Positions 18,477 to 28,373 of a stretch of 64,000 bases of DNA are shown piece after piece (the stretch's first letter is position 1; every line of letters starts with the position of its first letter). Made by a program: the position numbers and the translations under genes. This DNA comes from Ramlibacter sp. (GTDB lineage Bacteria; Pseudomonadota; Gammaproteobacteria; Burkholderiales; Burkholderiaceae_C), in assembly GCA_030695945.1 (NCBI GenBank), contig JAUYOG010000021.1, forward strand, positions 1 through 64,000, read 5' to 3'. The notes below the pieces were generated by a model. The model was not told the DNA's origin. It saw only the letters and a program-made list of their open reading frames with translations, and ran no database searches.

Positions 18477-18658
18477 ATGTCCAGTGGAACTGTCATTCCG
18501 GCCTCCTACGAGAATCGTGAGCAAGCGCTGATCAAACACCAGCTTCTGGAGCACTACCTCGAGAAGCTATTCATGATCGTTGGAATGGCTTCGCGAGCTC
18601 GACGCGACGTTGAGATGTGCTATGTCGACTGCTTTGCGGGCCCGTGGGGCGACCTGTC
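18477..18658 (+). pseudogene. tcmP: 5' fragment of a three-Cys-motif partner gene (tcmP-like)
   Basis: About 61 codons remain before the IS21-type element begins. The residues YENREQALIKHQLLEHYLEK and CYVDCFAGPWGD match the start of TcmP-family proteins, whose first Rossmann strand and glycine loop read 'YVD.FAGP'. The rest of the gene is not found intact beyond the element; a short frame ending EVLEWVK at 21203 might be its last codons. A LexA box lies upstream. The product would be non-functional. Confidence 0.7.
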
Positions 18659-18730
18659 TGTTGATTTCCATTGAATCTTGACCCCGGCTTTTCATTTAAT
18701 TCTGACCCCACCCTTGGTGGAGTAGCCGGG

Positions 18731-19546
18731 CTACTCGATTGTGGATAAGTCTAACGTCGTCGGTGTTGTTTCTCCTTTCTTGGGCCTGCCCCGTGGCTTG
18801 GCCGCGGTGGGCACTGCGGCACTGGAATTCTTGAACCTCCAGCTGTCGTTGCCCGTCTCCACGATGTGGCAGTGATGGGTGAACCGGTCCAGCAGGGCCG
18901 TGGTCATCTTGGCGTCGCCGAACACCTGGCTCCATTCGCCGAAGCTCAGGTTGGTCGTGATCGTCACGCTGGTGTGCTCGTACAGTTTCGAGAGCAGGTG
19001 AAACAGCAAGGCCCCGCCGGCCTGGCTGAAGGGTAAGTAGCCCAGCTCGTCCAGCACCACCAGGTCGGTGTACATCAGGCGGTGCGCGATCTGACCGGCC
19101 TTGCCCTGGGCTTTCTCCTGCTCCAGCGCGTTAACCAGTTCCACCGTCGAGAAGAATCGCACGCGCTTGCCGTGTCGCTGGATCGCCTCGATACCGATGG
19201 CCGTGGCCAGATGTGTCTTGCCCGTGCCTGGGCCGCCAATGAGCACTGCGTTGTGCGCCGCCTCGATGAACTTGCCGGCATGCAAGGTCCTGACCAACGC
19301 TTCATCGACATTGGCCTGCGCGAACTCGAAGCCGGCCAGGTCCCGGTGCGCCGGGAAGCGAGCCGCCCCCATCTGGTAGGCCATGGAGCGCACCGCCCGT
19401 TCGGCCGTTTCGGCCTTGAGCAGCTGGTTCAGGAACGCCTCGGGCGTGAAGTCGGTGTGCCTCGCCTGCGCGGCCACCTCCGGGTAGTTGGACGCCATGC
19501 CGTGCAGCTTCATGGCCTTCAGAGCCGAGATAATTTCGGCGCTCAT
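18731..19546 (-). CDS. istB: IS21 helper ATPase IstB
   Basis: A 271-residue AAA+ protein with Walker [12 protein letters not shown] near residues 105-115, Walker [12 protein letters not shown] and sensor region TTNLSFGEW. IstB proteins stimulate IstA transposition by binding and bending target DNA. Its ATG at 19546 overlaps the istA stop in an ATGA arrangement, the normal istAB layout. The length is normal for the family and no lesion is visible. Confidence 0.9.
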
Positions 19547-21063
19547 CGTGCGCTCTCCCCGGCCGCGCCGCGCAGGCGGTCGTAGCGCTGCACGTTGGCC
19601 AGCGGTTCCACTGCCAGCTTCAACGGCGTGCTGGCCGCCTCCAGGGAACCCACCTCGGCCGGCGCCTTTAGCCGCGCCAGCACGTTCAGCACATGCTCGC
19701 CGCTGGGTTTGCCCGCCTCCAGCGCCAATTCCGCCGCCACCAACACCGCGTCCAGCCCGTGCACCGGCACGGCCGCCAGTACCTGCGCCATGACTCGGTC
19801 GCCGCCGTCGTGGCGCAGCAAGATGGCCTGCAGCTTCTTGAGCGGCTCGGGCAGGGTCTCGAACGGCGCCCCATTGCGCAGCGCGCCGGGCTTGCGCTCG
19901 ATCAGGCTCACGTAGTGGCGCCAGTCGTAGAAGGTCTGGCTGCGCTCGAAGCTGCGTACATGCGTGGCCACGCGCGCATTCTCGGCGACGACCTCGACGC
20001 GATCCGGGTACAGCCGCAGGCTGACCACTTCGTGCGCGTGCTCGCTGGGCACGCTGTAACGGTTGCGCTGCAGGTGTACCAGGGCCGTGCTGGACACGCG
20101 CGCTGGCACCTCCACGTAGCCGTCGAACGGCTTGGGGTTGGGCATCAGGCGCAGCTGCTCGTCCTGCAGCACGTCGGCCACCTTCAGCGCGGGCCACTCG
20201 GGGTGGTTCAACTCGCTCCATGCACTGCGGCATTCTTCGGCCAGCCAGGCGTTCAGCGTTTCCATGCTGTCCCAGCGCAGCTTGACTGCCTTGTGCCAGA
20301 TGCTGCTGCGCCGATCGCGCACGTTTTTCTCCACAATGCCCTTCTCCCAGCCGCTGGCCACGTTGCAGAACTCGGGCTCGAACAGGTAGTGGCCGGTCAT
20401 CGCCTCGAAGCGCGCGTTGATGACCCGTTTTTTGCCAAGGCCAACTTTGTCGACAGCGGTTTTCATGTTGTCGTAGATGCCGCGCTGGGGCACCCCGCCA
20501 AAGGCGGCGAACGCCCTGGCATGCGCGTCGAACAGCATCTCGTGGCTTTGCGTCGGGTACGCCACCAGCCAGAACGCGCGGCTGGCGCACAGTTTCGTGT
20601 GCGCCACTTCAAGGCGCCGGCGCAGGCCGCCCACGAAGGCGTACTCGGTGCTCCAGTCGAATTGGAAGGCTTCGCCCAGCGCGAATTTCAGGGGCACGAA
20701 CGCGCCCTTGTTGGCGCTGCCGGCTTGCTCCTGGCGCCAGCGCCGGGCAAATGCCGCTACGCGCCCGTAGCCGCCCTGGTAGCCCTGCGCGGCGAGCTCT
20801 TCGTACATCAACTTGACCGTGCGCCGATCTCGTTTGCCGCGGTGCGCGTCGGCTTTGAGCCAGGTCGCCAGCTGCTCGGCGTAGCCGTCCAACTTGGTCA
20901 CCGCCACCCGCGGCGGATACCTGGGCTCGATCATCTGGCCCTTTCGCAGCCAGCGCTTGATGGTGTTGCGCGCAATCCCCGTGCGCCTCTCGATTTCCTT
21001 GATCGGCACGCCCTCGCGCAGGTGTAGCCGCCGGATCTTCGCCAGTGTTCCCACTTTGATCAC
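19543..21063 (-). CDS. istA: IS21 transposase IstA
   Basis: About 506 residues. An N-terminal helix-turn-helix ([20 protein letters not shown]) is followed by a DDE catalytic core: first Asp in QFDWSTE, second in IYDNMKTAV, and the Glu in GIVEKNVRD. The C-terminal beta-barrel region ([13 protein letters not shown]) is also present, so it appears intact. I chose the GTG at 21063; a GTG at 21054 has a better-spaced AGGAG and an ATG exists at 21108. Confidence 0.88.
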
Positions 21064-21230
21064 TCCTCGATCCCCCTGCCTAAAAGTTAAGCAGAGGACT
21101 TTATTCAAGGGGTCAAATTTCGATGAAAAATCTCAGCTCAAAGGGGTCAGATTTGCTCGGCAATCAACAGCCAGCGGAGGTGAAGTGTTGGAGTGGGTCA
21201 AATGACCCCGACTTCGTCCGCACATATGAA

Positions 21231-22166
21231 ATGCCGATGCTGATCGTGGCGAATCGCTGGAGTCGGGTGCCTCGCCCTTGTTTCCCTTGGGTGCGCACCG
21301 TCGAGCGCATTATCTGCCAGGAGCCGCTTGAAGCACTCGGCGGGCCGGAGATCCAGGTGCACTCGGATTACTCCGGCGACCACAAAGGCAGCGAATACCG
21401 CACGATCGCACTGCTTTATTCCGACGTTGTTGCATCCACGCGCTGGATCTACCATCGCGCAAGTTGGCGGAGGAAGCACCTTCCCGATGGCAGACGCATG
21501 AGCTTCAAGGGGCTCAACGACCGCAAGAAGCAGGTCGCTTTAGTGCCGTTTCTGGAAGCCGCTCACGAGATCAGCGGCCTGCTTCTCGTCGTTGCGATTA
21601 ACCGCTCCGTGACGCATCCTTGTCAAGGTGAACTCGTTCGAACGGCGATGGCGACTCGGTTCATGGCCCGCTTTGCGTGGGGCGCGGCGCAGTTCGAGCG
21701 GATGGTGCAGATAGCCCATTTGGTGGCGCTGCTGGGTGGCGGACTCGGCCTGCACGGTCAAGACCTATATTGGTTCTCGGACGAAGATGAATTGTTCGCC
21801 AATGAGCGCGCAGCCTCCGACCTAACGCAGGTTCTTGGCTTGTTCACGGGCAACTATTTCCAGCACAGGCCGGGGATACTGGGATTGGGTACGACGGCGC
21901 TCGACGAGGGAGACCGGTACGAGGAGGATTGCGCCGCAGTAGCGGATCTTTCCGCCGGTGCAATCGCGAGGGTACTGACGTGCCTGCGCCGCGACCTCGG
22001 TCGATTGCCCGCTTCGATGGCTTACGAGCACGCAATTTCATGCGGAATGAAAACCGATGTCATCACCGACTGGTTCGCCGACGAGTCGAGCCGGCTGCGC
22101 AAGGTGCTTGTGGTCTTCGAACCTGCGAACCAGAAGCAACACTGCGTCTTTAAGATGACGATGTGA
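21231..22166 (+). CDS. DUF3800-like protein next to the IS element
   Basis: About 311 residues from the ATG at 21231. The stretch IQVHSDYSGDHKGSEYRTIALLYSDV resembles the first strand of DUF3800 proteins ('.IDESG...'), an RNase H-like fold often seen in mobile and defence regions, but the match is weak. Later parts contain QDLYWFSDEDELFANE and a helical C-terminus. The frame is open into the IS end, so the true start may have been lost or changed by the insertion. It ends 17 bp inside the 3' end of the convergent tcmP gene. Confidence 0.5.
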   Translation: MPMLIVANRWSRVPRPCFPWVRTVERIICQEPLEALGGPEIQVHSDYSGDHKGSEYRTIALLYSDVVASTRWIYHRASWRRKHLPDGRRMSFKGLNDRKKQVALVPFLEAAHEISGLLLVVAINRSVTHPCQGELVRTAMATRFMARFAWGAAQFERMVQIAHLVALLGGGLGLHGQDLYWFSDEDELFANERAASDLTQVLGLFTGNYFQHRPGILGLGTTALDEGDRYEEDCAAVADLSAGAIARVLTCLRRDLGRLPASMAYEHAISCGMKTDVITDWFADESSRLRKVLVVFEPANQKQHCVFKMTM

Positions 22167-23445
22167 TCCCTGGCGACGTCCCGGGAAACGAAAACGTACG
22201 CTGCTTCGGCAGCCTGAGCACGTGCTCTCCGTTTATCGCGCTTCGTGCGGTGCTGATTTTTCCATCCTCTCGAATCACTTCCAGCTCGCCGAGGCTTGCC
22301 AGTTGGAGCACGGTAAGAGAGATCATCTGTCGAGTCGCAGGGGTTAGATTGACGCGGCTTTCGAAGAAGTCCTGAAAGCGCACACCCGCTGGGTACGTCG
22401 CGATCGCGCGCGGAATCTGAGCCAGCATTGAGTCGATGCTGCGCGTCTTGGCAACGTCGTCAAACTCAAACGCACGCTGTGGGCGATCGGCGTCGTCGAT
22501 GCGAGCCGCATACCCTGTCGCGAACATGTCCAGGCCGGCGTCGCCGTAGTGGATGAAGTGATTGTGGTGCTTCCAATGAGTCGTTGTCATGACGTCTCGT
22601 GCTTTCCAGTGGCGCGAAAGATGGACAAGCCAGAAGTCGCCATGTCCGCGCTCGGAACGAATAAAAAAGGGAGTGAAATACTCAGCCCCTGATTCGCGCG
22701 TGATTCCCTGGTAGAGACCAGACTGCAGGTATAGCCGCCACCCGGGCGTCTTTTTCATTTCATCCAGCTCGCGCGCGGTGATTGGAGCCTGAATCCCTGT
22801 CTTGCGCTGGAAGTCCGAGAGGTTCTTTTCCGAAAGAAAATTGATCAAGGCATCGACGGCGAACGTGAGGATCACCTCGGCCCGATGCAACGAGAATATC
22901 GTTTGGATGGCCGCCAGTGGAACGGAGTCATAGCCGTACTGGTCGAGGATAAAGACCGCGCGCCCTGCGCGTGGCGAGCGCCGCCTGGCCTCGGCAACGG
23001 CTGACTCGCAGTGGACGACGAAGTCCCCCTGGAGCAGCCGAATCGACCCGCCCGAAAGCTGGTTTTCATACCCTTGTTCAATGAGCACATGACGCAAGTG
23101 GTCGATGGCACTGGGGGACTCGTCAATGCAAATGAGCTCGACGTCGAAAACGATCGGCTTGCGCCGTCGCTGCTCGATCTCGATACGAAGCTGCGCCTCG
23201 CGGATCGCTTGCAGGATGACAATCGGTGAGCCTGGCGCAGCAGCGCCAGACTGGGTCGTATAGCGACCACCTCCACAAAATCCGTCAACGATGGTCAGCT
23301 GGATACGATCTTGATGCGGGCTCGAAACCAGTGTTGAGAAGTATTCGACAAGATACCCGCGCAACAACGCGTGCTTCACCTCGCTGTGACGAGCCAATGG
23401 CGGGGGGGAACTCCCCCACACCCATTCGTAGTGATTTGCCAGCAT
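22150..23445 (-). CDS. tcmP: Three-Cys-motif partner protein TcmP
   Basis: A 431-residue protein of the TcmP family, which is defined by its genetic link to a protein with a three-Cys motif, here the gene just upstream. The N-terminal half looks like a Rossmann methyltransferase fold: TIVDGFCGGGRYTTQSG (glycine loop), VELICIDESPSAIDHL (acidic end of strand 2), RLLQGDF and AVFILDQYGYD (motif IV-like). The C-terminal half is helical with unknown role. No catalytic function is established for the family. Together with the DUF5131 protein and the LexA-like repressor it forms a compact three-gene unit. Confidence 0.82.
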   Translation of the reverse strand: MLANHYEWVWGSSPPPLARHSEVKHALLRGYLVEYFSTLVSSPHQDRIQLTIVDGFCGGGRYTTQSGAAAPGSPIVILQAIREAQLRIEIEQRRRKPIVFDVELICIDESPSAIDHLRHVLIEQGYENQLSGGSIRLLQGDFVVHCESAVAEARRRSPRAGRAVFILDQYGYDSVPLAAIQTIFSLHRAEVILTFAVDALINFLSEKNLSDFQRKTGIQAPITARELDEMKKTPGWRLYLQSGLYQGITRESGAEYFTPFFIRSERGHGDFWLVHLSRHWKARDVMTTTHWKHHNHFIHYGDAGLDMFATGYAARIDDADRPQRAFEFDDVAKTRSIDSMLAQIPRAIATYPAGVRFQDFFESRVNLTPATRQMISLTVLQLASLGELEVIREDGKISTARSAINGEHVLRLPKQRTFSFPGTSPGITSSS

Positions 23446-23522
23446 TGAGCGCCGCTCGCTGCAGTGGCGAGCCCCCTGAATTCGAGACTCAATGTAACTT
23501 GAATACGGCTATCGCCGCAAGA

Positions 23523-24287
23523 CTATGCAGCAGCGGCCTCCACTTGACTGCACACAGCCGCTGGCATTTCGTCCCATGTTCGTCCATCCAGCGTGCGCCC
23601 GTTTGCGGCCTTGGCGCGACGCTTCCCATCAGCGCCCCAGCCACCCCACTGCTTAAAGAAGAACGCAACCTCCTGCTCGGCACATTGCCGCTGGACTGCT
23701 CTCGCCCATTCCATGCGCATGGGTCGCGCCTTCGGGCCGGACTCGCCACCGACAATGACCCAATGAATGCCGGTGAGATCGAGGTCACCAACGTCTTCCA
23801 ATAACGGTTCGACGGAGAGGAACCGGATTGATGCACCGACCCCGCGCAGATGGTCGATGCGAGGCACGCCGTATTTCTTGTCCTCTACGGAAACGCCCAA
23901 CCAAGCGTTGGGTGGAACGGAGCGCCCACGGAAATATCGCTCCATGCGAGCCGCGCGCTTGGTCAATATCTGATACGTGTGGCGAGGCGTCTCAGTGATG
24001 ACCTGGAATACCTTGTCTATGTAGGCGGCAGGCACCCTGTCATGGAACAAGTCCGACATCGAATTCACAAAGTAGACGGTTGGTCGCTTCCGACTCTTTG
24101 GGTCGTCCAGTCGCTGAGGCAATAGGGTCAGGGCAAAACCATTCTCGTACCCTGGCGTGCCCATCGCCTTCAGTCGACGTGACATAGTTTCCGCGTAACA
24201 GTGCTTGCAACCCGGCGAAATTTTGGTGCACCCGACCGTCGGGTTCCAGGTCTGTTCGGTCCACTCGATTCGGCTCACTGTCGTCAT
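23523..24287 (-). CDS. DUF5131 / phage Gp37-Gp68 family three-Cys-motif protein
   Basis: A 254-residue protein with the family hallmark EWTEQTWNPTVGCTKISPGC followed by KHCYAE: a C-x6-C-x2-C triad near residues 20-30 that may hold an iron-sulfur cluster. Further conserved blocks are VYFVNSMSDLFHD, YQILTKRAARM, WLGVSVEDKKYG and IHWVIVGGESGP. The domain resembles radical-SAM-type folds (spore photoproduct lyase-like), but its reaction is unknown. It overlaps the LexA-like gene by 4 bp (ATGA) and precedes tcmP by 77 bp, so the three are likely one transcript. Confidence 0.85.
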   Translation of the reverse strand: MTTVSRIEWTEQTWNPTVGCTKISPGCKHCYAETMSRRLKAMGTPGYENGFALTLLPQRLDDPKSRKRPTVYFVNSMSDLFHDRVPAAYIDKVFQVITETPRHTYQILTKRAARMERYFRGRSVPPNAWLGVSVEDKKYGVPRIDHLRGVGASIRFLSVEPLLEDVGDLDLTGIHWVIVGGESGPKARPMRMEWARAVQRQCAEQEVAFFFKQWGGWGADGKRRAKAANGRTLDGRTWDEMPAAVCSQVEAAAA

Positions 24288-24907
24288 TGCCCGGCTCCTC
24301 TCTGACGGTTTCGCTGACTGGGATAACTGCGTACGACTCCACGCACCACCCCGAGGATTTCAAGTCCTTCCACAGGCTCAATGACCGGTTCCCCGCGATT
24401 GTGCGCCACAAGAACAGGCTTACCGGCGCGATGCCGCAATTCCTTGATGGTGAAATTGCCGTCGACAAGAGCAAGCACGATGTCCCCGGGATGCGACTTC
24501 ACCCCTTGTTCTACAAAGGCGTAGTCTCCTTCGAGCACACCTACATCGCGCATTGAGTTCCCCTTGACCTTGAGCATTACGCTGCTTGAAGGCCGCGCAT
24601 CGATAAGCCCTGCAATTGTCGCGACGTCGCTCGCCGCTTCGGGCACGAGCACTTCACCCAGCCCTGCCCGCACCTTCTCGTCCGCCAGAGGCACCTCGAA
24701 AAACCTCTTGCCGGGCTTGAGCCGCCCGGCCTCTGTCTGTTCAACGTACCCCATTACACAAAGCCGTGATACCAGCCGCGTCACTGCGGCCTTGCTGGCG
24801 AAACCCAGCAAGTCCCTGATTTGCGCGAAAGTAGGCATCAACCGGTTTGCCGCATAGCAGTCCCGGAGTCGGGCTAGGTAATCGGCGTCGCAATTCGGTC
24901 TTGCCAT
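24284..24907 (-). CDS. LexA/UmuD-like self-cleaving repressor
   Basis: A 207-residue regulator. The N-terminal part is a winged helix (TFAQIRDLLGFASKAAVTRL). The C-terminal part is an S24 peptidase: the catalytic Ser in KGNSMRDVGVLEGDYAFVE, the Lys in NFTIKELRHR, and an Ala-Gly in VRAGLGEV as the probable cleavage site. It should bind the 34-bp palindrome that begins five bases before its start codon, and lose repression when RecA filaments trigger self-cleavage. It differs from housekeeping LexA in its operator and in being the first gene of the tcm operon, so it is probably a dedicated regulator. Confidence 0.87.
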   Translation of the reverse strand: MARPNCDADYLARLRDCYAANRLMPTFAQIRDLLGFASKAAVTRLVSRLCVMGYVEQTEAGRLKPGKRFFEVPLADEKVRAGLGEVLVPEAASDVATIAGLIDARPSSSVMLKVKGNSMRDVGVLEGDYAFVEQGVKSHPGDIVLALVDGNFTIKELRHRAGKPVLVAHNRGEPVIEPVEGLEILGVVRGVVRSYPSQRNRQRGAGQ

Positions 24908-24911
24908 CTAA

Positions 24912-24945
24912 GCTAGATTAGTGTACGACCGTACACTAATCTAGC
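24912..24945. promoter_or_regulatory. Perfect 34-bp palindrome at the LexA-like gene
   Basis: The arms GCTAGATTAGTGTACG (24912-24927) and CGTACACTAATCTAGC (24930-24945) are perfect inverted copies around AC. It starts five bases upstream of the start codon, so it overlaps any promoter or ribosome site; no Shine-Dalgarno is visible and the mRNA may be leaderless. It does not match the CTGT-N8-ACAG box and is probably the autoregulatory operator. Confidence 0.8.
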
Positions 24946-25183: not shown

Positions 25184-26638
25184 TCAGTCACCCCGGACTA
25201 AGACTAGGGGCGCGATTCCTTGCATCTGGTCCATCGGAGAGCTGCAACGTCTCCCCTTCAGAGCCGTGTGGGCCGGAGCCGATTGCGCCCGAGCCCTTTC
25301 TCGCGCGGTCGCCCCTGCGGCTGAGTCTTCAATCGGGCTTTCCCTTTCAACGGCCTGTGTCGATGTCACCATCACCCCCGCCCTGCGCAAAATGAACTCC
25401 TCGACCTCCGCCATATACCCGCGCAACGCGTCCATCCGTCGGGGTCTGTATTTCTCAGCCAACGCGCTGGGCTGGTGACCCATGATCTGCGCAAGGGCGC
25501 CACTGGGGACCCTTGCTTCCTCCCCCAGCAACGAAAAACTGCGCCGAAGTCCATGGACGGTCATATGGTCGATTCCGGCCCGTTTCTGGACCCTGTCCAG
25601 CACGCTTCGAGGTTCCGAGATATGCCCTCGCGCTGAAGTCTCGCTCACGAAAACATAGGGATTCCCCTCAACCACCGGCAGTTCCAGCAACATCCGCCTG
25701 AAGTGCGGTGCAAGCGGAATCTTCCGCGTCTGGCCATACTTGTCCGCAATCGTCATGCAGTTCCACTGGTAGTCAACGTCCGCTCGCTTCAGGCCGGCGA
25801 GTTCCTCGCGCCGCGCGCCCGTCAAGAGCAACCCGATCAAGTAAGTGCTCCCTACCCGGCTCGAATCCGCCTTCGCTGCGGCGAACCACGCGGGCAGCTG
25901 GCTCGCCTCCAGTGCGTCGGTGCGGGAAACGCTGGGAGGCAGCAAATCGGACAGCAAGCGTGGTTTCGCGGCATCGCTGTGGACCAAATCCCTGTAATCG
26001 CGTTGCTTCGAGCACCAGGAAAGGAACCCCGAGAACATGGCCAGGCACCGGGCGGCCTGGACTTCGCCCCGGGCCGACTCCACGTGGTACCAATCCCGCA
26101 TGGCGTCCTCGTCGATATCCACCAGCCGTTTTGCCATCAACGGGTGGAGCGGGCCGGCCTTGGTCAGCCCCTTGCCGCGCTTGCGGGGCTTCCCGCCCGG
26201 GTCCGCGGCCTTTTTCAGGTCCTCGACGTAACGCGGCTTCCAGGCCGCCTTGCGGAGGGGCTTCCCCTTTTTCAGGTAGGTCGCCCAGGCCACCTCCACA
26301 ATCGTCGCCCTGCGCTCATCCTGGGCGGTTTTGGCGGCCTTGGCCGCGCGAACCTCCCGCAGGTGGGCCCGAGGGTCGATTCCACGGTCCACCTGCGTCT
26401 TCTTTTCGTTGGCCTCCTGCCGGGCGGCCTCGATCGTCCATGCCGCCACGTCGCCGATGACGGTGCGGATGGTCTTGCCATGCAGCTTTCCTTCGAACAC
26501 GAACGACTTGCTACCAGCGGCGGTGACGCGCGCCGCCAGCCAGGGGCATTTGCTGTCCCGCAGGAATTCCTGCGACTTCCCGGGCGGGCACTTCAAGTCC
26601 GCGATGCGGCCCGCCGTCAGATTTACCTTCTCCGTCAT
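25184..26638 (-). CDS. P4-type tyrosine integrase of the island
   Basis: A 484-residue integrase with an N-terminal DUF4102-type arm-binding domain (VNLTAGRIADLKCPPGKSQEF, split here) and a catalytic domain: Arg in TGARREELAG, Lys in YGQTRKIPL, HGLRRSF, GHQPSALAEKY with the nucleophile Tyr. About 75 residues extend beyond the Tyr. I chose the ATG at 26638 (AAGGGA upstream); starts at 26659 or 26704 are possible. It lies beside a tRNA-Thr 3' fragment, so it is the enzyme that inserted this island. Confidence 0.88.
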   Translation of the reverse strand: MTEKVNLTAGRIADLKCPPGKSQEFLRDSKCPWLAARVTAAGSKSFVFEGKLHGKTIRTVIGDVAAWTIEAARQEANEKKTQVDRGIDPRAHLREVRAAKAAKTAQDERRATIVEVAWATYLKKGKPLRKAAWKPRYVEDLKKAADPGGKPRKRGKGLTKAGPLHPLMAKRLVDIDEDAMRDWYHVESARGEVQAARCLAMFSGFLSWCSKQRDYRDLVHSDAAKPRLLSDLLPPSVSRTDALEASQLPAWFAAAKADSSRVGSTYLIGLLLTGARREELAGLKRADVDYQWNCMTIADKYGQTRKIPLAPHFRRMLLELPVVEGNPYVFVSETSARGHISEPRSVLDRVQKRAGIDHMTVHGLRRSFSLLGEEARVPSGALAQIMGHQPSALAEKYRPRRMDALRGYMAEVEEFILRRAGVMVTSTQAVERESPIEDSAAGATARERARAQSAPAHTALKGRRCSSPMDQMQGIAPLVLVRGD

Positions 26639-26768
26639 CTGGTTTCCCTTCGTGGCCATGTAGCCACCATGTAGCCAGATTACGGGAATCGACCCGCATT
26701 TCAATCAACGACAACGAATGGTCAAGGGTGCGTAGAGCATTGATTTCAAAGGAAAAGTGCAACTACAA

Positions 26769-27162: not shown

Positions 27163-27954
27163 ATGGAATTTGTAGGAACCAGTGCTGGCGAAACCTTGCA
27201 GGGCACCGAACTCGATGATTCGATCGACGGAATGGCAGGCAACGACACGCTCGAGGGCCTCGGTGGCGACGACCTGCTCGATGGCGGCGATGGCGACGAC
27301 ATTCTGGACGGGGGCCCGGGCAGCGACGTGTTGACGGGCGGCCTCGGCGCCGACACCTTTCACACCGGTTTCACAGTGACGACGCCGGAAACCTCAACCT
27401 TCTCCGGCTGGCTGGCAGACCAGGGCCTGGACCCCCTGGCCGATGGTGCGGCGCAGTCGTATTTCGCGAAGCACTACACAGCCTGGCTCACTTCGCTCGT
27501 GGCGGAAAATGAATTGGGCGCCGACGTCGATGGCGACGGCGTGGTGAGCGTGGACCTCAACCAGAACGACCCTGAAGGCACACCGACGATCGAAGGCATG
27601 ACCCAGGAGGAAGCGGCCACCCTCTTCAGCGATCGCCAGAGCCTCGATGTGCAGACGGGCCGGACCACGCACGAGCGCTGGTACTCCGACACATTCACGT
27701 TCGGCGAGACGGCAGTGGCCAGCGACGCCGGCACGGACGTCATCACCGATTTCAGCGCCACGGACGGCGACACGCTGCACCTGGCCGGGCTCACCGAGGC
27801 CGACTTCGACGCGCTCTTCACGATCGCCGAGGCGGACGTCGACGCCGACACGGTGCTGGACACCGTCGTGACGCTGGATGCCGACCCGGACTGGTCGCTG
27901 ACGCTGGTGGGAACGTCGGGCTTCGACCCGGCCACGGGCATCGTGTTCGCCTGA
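27163..27954 (+). CDS. RTX-type calcium-binding secreted protein
   Basis: A 263-residue acidic protein. Residues 18-63 hold four nonapeptide-like RTX repeats (GMAGNDTLE, GLGGDDLLD, GGDGDDILD, GGPGSDVLT), which bind Ca2+ and fold outside the cell. An EF-hand-like loop DVDGDGVVSVD lies near residue 120, and a C-terminal region (DVITDFSATDGDTLHLAGL) resembles the end of serralysin-type type I secretion substrates. There is no signal peptide, as expected for type I secretion, but no transporter genes are nearby. GGAG precedes the ATG. It is the first chromosomal gene after the island. Confidence 0.8.
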   Translation: MEFVGTSAGETLQGTELDDSIDGMAGNDTLEGLGGDDLLDGGDGDDILDGGPGSDVLTGGLGADTFHTGFTVTTPETSTFSGWLADQGLDPLADGAAQSYFAKHYTAWLTSLVAENELGADVDGDGVVSVDLNQNDPEGTPTIEGMTQEEAATLFSDRQSLDVQTGRTTHERWYSDTFTFGETAVASDAGTDVITDFSATDGDTLHLAGLTEADFDALFTIAEADVDADTVLDTVVTLDADPDWSLTLVGTSGFDPATGIVFA

Positions 27955-27992
27955 CGCCCCGGGGCCCCGGCCCACGCGCTTAAACTGGCGGC

Positions 27993-28373
27993 ATGCCGAC
28001 ATCCATTGCCGCCATCTGCGCCGGGGCCTCGCTGGGCGCGCTGCTGCGCTGGGTGCTGGCAGGCCGTTTCAACCCGCTCCACCCCGCGCTGCCGCTCGGG
28101 ACCCTCGCCGCGAACCTGATCGGCGGCTACCTGATCGGGGTGGCCATCGCGGTTTTCGCCAACATGCCCGAGTTGTCGCCGCAAGCGCGCCTGTTCGTCG
28201 TTACCGGCTTCCTGGGCGGGCTCACCACGTTTTCCACCTTCTCGGCCGAGGTCGTGACCCAGTTGCAGCAAGGGCACACCGCGTGGGCGCTGGCTACGGC
28301 ATTGGCACACCTGCTCGGCTCTTTCGCGCTGACGGCCCTGGGCATCGCCACGGTGTCATGGCTGCGAACCTGA
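27993..28373 (+). CDS. crcB: Fluoride exporter CrcB/FluC
   Basis: A 126-residue protein with four transmembrane segments and the family motifs [20 protein letters not shown] and [10 protein letters not shown], which form the fluoride-lined dual-topology dimer pore. It exports F- passively. The length is normal. No fluoride riboswitch is recognisable in the 38 bp between it and the preceding gene. Confidence 0.93.

Follow-up and report, generated by a model that had tools for sequence, protein, structure and literature searches.

Relatives of DUF5131 (PF07505) are common on plasmids and phages. As far as the available excerpts of the open-licence PubMed Central (PMC) literature extend, no function was found for DUF5131 or for TcmP (TIGR04474). 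Both enzymes are already listed as phage-defence candidates by PADLOC, whose systems PDC-M30 and PDC-M41 hold the two families side by side (M30B and M41B being DUF5131, M30A and M41A being TcmP). In a stretch of 64,000 nucleotides from Ramlibacter sp. (positions 1 to 64,000 of contig JAUYOG010000021.1, assembly GCA_030695945.1; hereafter the window), both families are encoded behind a gene for a LexA-like repressor, in what may be a mobile set of two enzymes that is switched on by DNA damage and serves to repair or modify nucleic acid, a reading to which we give about an even chance. Only the two enzymes of this module have counterparts in PADLOC; none of its models matches the repressor. LexA-type control recurs among relatives of the pair; this hints strongly at the occasion on which the pair is used and opens its function to experiment. 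Were the repair reading true, a mobile radical S-adenosylmethionine (SAM) pathway would be added to the SOS response; were the pair a defence, it would be a damage-gated one with new chemistry.

In lexA2-imuA-imuB-dnaE2 cassettes a second LexA-like repressor likewise heads damage genes, and the operator of Pseudomonas LexA2 is GTAC-N4-GTGC-like; the cassette cargo consists of polymerases, whereas that of the present module is a radical-SAM-like enzyme and a methyltransferase. Spore photoproduct lyase and the SplB-like proteins (NF033668, which we take to be COG1533) resemble DUF5131 in predicted fold and in the motif N-P-x-x-G-C...C-x-x-C-Y-A, but DUF5131 has six residues between the first two cysteines where SplB has three, and its identity to the lyase is 14%; the likeness is one of model and motif, not of activity. 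In Mycobacterium tuberculosis, Rv2735c is presumably a TcmP and Rv2734 presumably a DUF5131 protein. According to the excerpts available of the relevant papers, recA, recX and Rv2735c are at least partly co-transcribed (PMC3062782) and Rv2734, Rv2735c, recX and recA form one gene cluster differentially expressed under mitomycin C (PMC5057432), a repressor gene of the cluster's own being reported in neither excerpt; BCG_2748c contains a three-Cys-motif partner domain (PMC7387457). Similar excerpts describe SOS regulation of SplB-like radical SAM proteins in several species (PMC8565304), an S. venezuelae LexA regulon with a radical SAM protein compared to enzymes that repair thymine cross-links (PMC9380542) and, in tabulated expression changes of S. 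meliloti, the neighbouring genes SMa2243, for a TcmP, and SMa2245, the phage-defence gene hna (PMC12445080). Apart from the expression data on M. tuberculosis, the accessible portion of the open-licence PMC full text describes no LexA control of DUF5131 or TcmP.

The operon and its recurrence

The features that carry the argument are the following:

24284 to 24907, minus strand: LexA-like repressor with S24 peptidase, 207 amino acids (Pfam Peptidase_S24, 67.5 bits)
23523 to 24287, minus strand: DUF5131 (PF07505) protein, radical-SAM-like, 254 amino acids, with C20-x6-C27-x2-C30-Y-A (366.8 bits)
22150 to 23445, minus strand: TcmP (TIGR04474), class-I methyltransferase-like, 431 amino acids, with a C-terminal GMT-like winged helix (210.4 bits)
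24912 to 24945, no strand: near-perfect palindrome of 34 bp, whose 18-bp operator core (24920-24937) is kept in nine triplets
24915 to 24943, minus strand: putative promoter, TAGATT / TAATCT, both weak, with the operator inside its 17-nucleotide spacer

The original prediction, made from the letters of the window, had placed the LexA/UmuD-like, DUF5131 and tcmP genes in one direction with a 4-bp overlap between the first two, and the three minus-strand open reading frames (ORFs) bear this out, the DUF5131 start lying over the repressor end. The DUF5131 gene of the window is the sole PF07505 match in its assembly (3.75 Mb, 79% complete). The gene order is not unique to this strain: eight other LexA-like/DUF5131/TcmP triplets were read, nine in all with the window. 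A tblastn search of plasmids yielded one on a Comamonas plasmid (L001), with the window's gene order and overlap (identity 38% over 195 residues for the repressor, 82% for DUF5131 and 39% for TcmP) and with a TcmP cut short next to an IS3 element. When genome contigs were searched with an alignment of six proteins, at least 557 relatives matched; the best 80 of them, whose genes were called with home-made profiles, added triplets in Paraburkholderia (L013), Achromobacter (L014), Comamonadaceae (L015) and Uliginosibacterium (L020), and a search with the repressor, made in 200 genomes from the family to which the window belongs, added L203, L204 and L205, where the fetched stretch stops inside TcmP. 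The 4-bp overlap is also present in L001, L013, L014, L015, L203 and L205, and is absent in L020.

Several similar loci were not counted as triplets. In L040 and L043 the LexA-like gene is parted from DUF5131 by one or two intervening genes; in L019 (repressor, TcmP, DUF5131, TcmP) no triplet-type operator precedes the repressor; the S24 genes beside TcmP in L098, L166, L171 and L172 look CI-like; and that of L035 is cut by the contig end. Two TcmP genes accompany a single DUF5131 in L019, L028, L032, L072 and L091, sometimes flanking it on both sides, and in L028 the upstream TcmP gene is split.

Operator, repressor and signs of damage control

The palindrome begins at the fifth base ahead of the repressor start codon, as predicted; its supposed perfection did not hold, 32 of its 34 positions being self-complementary, and the two mismatches to its own reverse complement amount to one unpaired centre pair. 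No match to it arose in 100 shuffles, and TTAGTGTAC-N2..6-GTACACTAA occurs a single time in the assembly, at the palindrome. An 18-bp operator, AGT-N3-C-N4-G-N3-ACT, stands 6-12 nucleotides ahead of the repressor start in all nine triplets, seven times exactly and twice with one mismatch. In a first set of 167 loci (7 from plasmids, 80 from genomes and 80 from viral contigs; 1.756 Mb, the window excluded), a loose form of the pattern occurs 16 times, five of them at triplets (L001, L013, L014, L015 and L020) and 11 elsewhere. Because the core recurs before the repressor gene in every triplet and is rare elsewhere, the palindrome is more than chance.

This operator fills the spacer of a promoter-like pair, as read from the sequence of L014 (TTGATT-17-TAAAAT) and L015 (TTGATT-17-TAATAT) and around a related site in L043 (TTGACA-17-TATAAT); the arrangement is clearer there than in the window, whose hexamers TAGATT/TAATCT are weak and where a promoter scan favours an alternative, TTCACA-16-TAGATT at 24965-24938. 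With the operator in the promoter spacer, repression is likely to work by occlusion, and the operon leader is likely very short or absent. The self-regulation that had been proposed is thus supported by a conserved operator at the repressor's own putative promoter. The LexA-like genes of L040 and L043, not counted among the triplets, also have operators in promoter spacers, CGAACGAACGTTCG inside the 18-nucleotide spacer of a TTGACA/TATAAT promoter at L040:1778 and GTGAACGATCGTTCAC inside the 17-nucleotide spacer of such a promoter in L043.

Against TIGR00498, the LexA equivalog, the window's repressor scores 76.9 bits, under the cut-off of 110.95, and we accordingly call it LexA-like and withhold the name LexA. 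For a winged helix-turn-helix at its N-terminus there is only a sub-threshold match to MarR_2 (20.5 against 27 bits), and the N-terminal part can be aligned with host LexA. Alignment predicts a cleavage site at A81-G82 and a catalytic dyad of Ser118 and Lys155; the Ala-Gly pair, the G-x-S-M serine and the T-x-K lysine are kept in 14 of 14 aligned rows (the nine triplet repressors, four others and host LexA). Since site and dyad are kept, the repressor is predicted to cleave itself in damaged cells. The host carries a separate, full-scoring LexA elsewhere in the assembly (223.7 bits), preceded by an ordinary CTGT-N8-ACAG box, CTGTTTAAAAATACAG; this box differs from the module operator, and the two LexA circuits therefore look separate. 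No close relatives of the repressor turned up among the viral contigs searched. Relatives that stand apart from DUF5131 are found in L206-L214, and in L209 and L210 sites like GAACATTC/GAACTTTC precede the start in place of the triplet operator.

Cargo that serves in DNA damage should, in some relatives that lack this repressor, sit under the host's own LexA, and for this reason host boxes were sought. In the first set, perfect CTGT-N8-ACAG boxes number eight in the 60,582 bp upstream of DUF5131/TcmP units (L046, L048, L049, L050, L059, L070, L072 and L091) against 12 in the other 1,695,360 bp (0.43 expected). Counted by upstream windows, there are eight in 202 targets against four in 1,596 before other ORFs (0.56 expected; Fisher test on bases, p=1.5e-5), two of these four (L133 and L144) directly preceding DUF5131; the reversed pattern gave 0 in target windows against 3. 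Searches of 369 and 399 genomes supplied a second set, which comprised 58 loci of which 56 were usable (L200 and L201, being without usable DUF5131, were left out of the counts); it gave three boxes in 64 windows (L175, L275 and L279), where random base composition would predict 0.29, and two in the other 180,585 bp. Two of its loci duplicate loci of the first set (L186 lies in L068, L272 in L045), both without an SOS box.

A second class of LexA-like control was found in which the gene for a related repressor stands divergently to TcmP or DUF5131 and is directly preceded by CGAAC-N4-GTTCG, which we take to be the Gram-positive LexA box; it comprises five separate loci, L068 (the same as L186 where they overlap), L260, L261, L264 and L271. 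This motif occurs 12 times in 2.2 Mb of loci, four times elsewhere and eight times at LexA-like genes by DUF5131, the eight being six separate sites (L068 = L186 = L241, L260, L261, L264, L271 and L040). An excess of GTTC-N7-GTTC and GAAC-N7-GAAC (3 and 6 upstream; 0.50 and 1.21 expected) was left unused because several matches look, by eye, like a conserved T-W-N-P coding stretch of DUF5131.

On a DUF5131 tree (a quick search without a mixture model, 142 rows of which 140 are different, proteins of fewer than 200 residues excluded, with long branches for L196 and L197), the control labels need 14 changes, eight for host boxes and three for each of the two LexA classes, against a mean of 25.4 for shuffled labels. 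Damage control thus appears to have been gained or lost repeatedly among DUF5131/TcmP units, and the triplet class may have had a single origin. Together with the kept cleavage site and dyad and, if the presumed Rv identities are right, the mitomycin C response of Rv2734 and Rv2735c, the host boxes before some non-triplet relatives lend support to the DNA-damage trigger named in the original prediction. Upstream of DUF5131 units at the genome loci, helix-turn-helix proteins outnumber those with any other domain (HTH_3 in 10 of 133 ORFs), and regulators other than LexA may serve other DUF5131 branches.

The two enzymes

DUF5131 passes its Pfam gathering score with ease (366.8 against 28.9 bits). 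The predicted C-x6-C-x2-C is present as C20-x6-C27-x2-C30, the three cysteines being invariant in 64 of 64 rows and N-P-x-x-G-C-x6-C-x-x-C-Y-A complete in 63 of them. A structural model from these 64 rows has a mean predicted local distance difference test (pLDDT) score of 91.9, and its six best matches in the Protein Data Bank (PDB) are all spore photoproduct lyase (E 5.2e-4 to 1.8e-3, probability 1.00); lipoyl synthase comes next, and viperin ranks 27th (E 0.08, template modelling (TM) score 0.48). Eleven SplB-like proteins from the same and related genomes, a twelfth locus being missing from this count, carry N-P-x-x-G-C-x3-C-x-x-C-Y/F-A, and hhalign joins them to DUF5131 with E 1.3e-4 over 89 columns, aligning the cysteine motif and two later motifs. 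Profile similarity to TIGR04471 (radical SAM mobile pair protein A) is significant at 89.8 bits but far under the cut-off of 355. DUF5131 appears to be a derivative of the SplB-like radical SAM proteins in which the cluster loop has changed, and the predicted fold favours the iron-sulfur enzyme acting on nucleic acid that had been suggested.

TcmP likewise passes its subfamily cut-off (TIGR04474, 210.4 against 53 bits). Its model (pLDDT 88.7, from 54 rows) gives 265 Foldseek matches at E<=0.001 and has a Rossmann-like methyltransferase fold, in line with the earlier suggestion of a methyltransferase; the best matches are RlmJ (3.1e-8), Trm1 (1.8e-7) and RlmJ again, at TM 0.33-0.36 by query length. 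The SAM-binding motif is of the same general type as in these enzymes (motif I, D54-GFCGGGRY), and motif IV is mostly D-Q/P-x-G, that of Trm1 being DPFG. Unlike RlmJ and Trm1, TcmP has an extra C-terminal winged helix, the Pfam GMT-like winged helix being matched by 41 of 54 TcmPs at E<=0.01. We predict TcmP to be an RlmJ/Trm1-like class-I methyltransferase. A PDB sequence search gave no credible match for either enzyme. PADLOC profile M30B matches DUF5131 at 371 bits and M30A the neighbouring TcmP at 76.5 bits, system thresholds not being applied.

What the pair may do, and where it travels

In the reading to which we give about an even chance, the LexA-like protein would bind the palindrome across its own promoter and hold the operon off. 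RecA filaments formed upon DNA damage would make it cut itself at A81-G82, which would free the operon for expression. The two products, DUF5131 as a radical SAM enzyme of the SplB-like kind whose cluster loop is altered and TcmP as an RlmJ/Trm1-like methyltransferase, would then work jointly on nucleic acid, DNA being the likelier target than RNA, and would most likely repair or chemically process damaged bases. Gene order, the conservation of the operator and of the cleavage and catalytic residues, and the repeated placement under LexA-type control are read from sequence, both folds are predicted, and we infer RecA-triggered cleavage, repression, the enzyme chemistry, a shared substrate and repair as the benefit. 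The regulation is thus well supported by sequence and the enzyme classes by prediction; what the original prediction had observed was partly confirmed, and its interpretation is partly supported. A more specific version, which we put forward tentatively, is a mobile second SplB-like lesion-repair pathway, in which a stretched-loop radical SAM enzyme and an RlmJ/Trm1-like methyltransferase would work in two steps to reverse a DNA lesion or to mark it, and which would have been placed under SOS control several times (by co-directional LexA, by divergent LexA and by host boxes).

A number of results weigh against this repair reading. On the enzyme side, DUF5131 does not have the canonical radical SAM motif CX3CX2C, the Pfam searches gave it no match to Radical_SAM, its likeness to spore photoproduct lyase is modest (TM 0.46-0.47, 14-15% identity), the hhalign probability for the SplB-like proteins is only 53%, and the structures nearest to TcmP modify RNA, at TM 0.35 by query length. 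TcmP is truncated in the triplets L001 and L013, so that it may be dispensable. On the side of control, SOS boxes occur in just 8 of 202 and 3 of 64 windows, and L046 and L059 share an identical box that probably goes back to a single event. Fully 116 of the 142 tree rows carry none of the three LexA signs, and well-supported branches alone force only two changes for host boxes, one for the triplet class and two for the divergent class. Among 24 windows of 12 actinobacterial loci (eleven plasmid, one phage) one exact GAAC-N4-GTTC was found (L252, -41), a result we take as negative for a Gram-positive LexA box before these copies. Nine of the 12 loci of the best repressor homologues in the window's family (L203-L214) have no DUF5131 within 1.5 kb on each side, and the repressor family is therefore not devoted to DUF5131/TcmP cargo. 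The mycobacterial parallel, too, depends on presumed gene identities, backed only by the three-Cys-motif partner domain of BCG_2748c, the putative equivalent of Rv2735c.

The main rival is antiphage defence, in which SOS induction or phage interference with the repressor would signal infection and the pair would modify phage nucleic acid or host RNA and so stop the phage; we consider it somewhat unlikely. The PADLOC listing of both enzymes speaks for it, as do restriction-modification, MADS (mad2, mad5) and PD-Lambda-5_A matches among the nearest ORFs of the genome loci, a DISARM gene close to the pair in pNOCA01, a DUF262 protein and an EcoRI-type methylase close to it in pYYL1.1, the position of SMa2243 beside hna in S. 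meliloti, as the excerpted table has it (PMC12445080), and a Gordonia phage, Angelique (L254), in which DUF5131 and TcmP converge and adjoin the immunity repressor, an integrase being close by. The neighbouring defence genes are, however, raw counts without a base rate, and we claim no enrichment in defence islands; SOS boxes before some non-triplet copies point instead to damage as such, as would the co-transcription of Rv2735c with recA-recX, provided that Rv2735c is a TcmP, and the available excerpts of open-licence PMC literature contain no phage test of the pair. Unlikely, in our view, is a module that is induced with DNA damage and modifies or repairs tRNA or rRNA: the three best structural matches of TcmP act on 23S rRNA (RlmJ, twice) and tRNA (Trm1), and its motif IV resembles that of Trm1, yet the nearest fold to DUF5131 is that of a DNA-lesion enzyme, and methyltransferase folds do not settle the substrate.

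A further explanation is that the pair protects the mobile element itself: by modifying the element's own DNA at the time of damage-induced mobilisation, it would shield that DNA from restriction. Relatives of DUF5131 occur in 402 plasmid and 161 phage records. In a survey of the two nearest ORFs on each side of the 80 genome loci (249 of 280 scanned, 133 of 139 upstream and 116 of 141 downstream), 10 of the 249 proteins were integrases and several were restriction-modification proteins. In three Pseudomonas plasmids (L002, L003 and L004, pCAR1 included), the DUF5131-TcmP pair lies 29 bp behind a site-specific integrase gene, itself divergent from a gene for a DNA-binding protein, a layout that we take to be tnpS/tnpT of Tn4651-family transposons, and the pair may there be transposon cargo. 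We nonetheless hold self-protection to be improbable, as this role is unneeded for copies under host SOS boxes in genome contigs (e.g., L046, L070 and L091) or for the neighbour of recA-recX in M. tuberculosis. Finally, the LexA-like gene might be a plain autoregulator or an immunity-type repressor, insensitive to damage, that hitch-hikes with the pair. Its TIGR00498 score lies below the cut-off, its cleavage is a prediction only, and some adjacent S24 genes in viral contigs are CI-like, but site and dyad are intact in all nine triplets and relatives stand independently behind host SOS boxes, which makes this account very improbable.

In the actinobacterial plasmids examined DUF5131 and TcmP are mostly convergent, and the layout in phage Angelique resembles prophage-expressed cargo. 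Around the operon, the window contains three further features:

25184 to 26704, minus strand: tyrosine integrase, upstream of the operon, a neighbour outside the module
18477 to 18674, plus strand: N-terminal remnant of a second, different TcmP, ending beside the IS21 element
18731 to 21108: insertion sequence of the IS21 type, adjoining the TcmP remnant

The integrase was rejected as a fixed partner of the module, being without a relative at E<=1e-8 among the ORFs compared. The TcmP remnant has up to 63% identity to TcmPs such as that of L047. An ORF beyond the IS21 element (21123-22166), considered as the lost half of this second TcmP, proved not to be TcmP; it resembles, over 58 residues, an ORF near the L204 triplet. 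Farther on, at 27163-28373, the window appears by eye to encode a protein with glycine/aspartate-rich, RTX-like repeats, followed by a small CrcB-like membrane protein.

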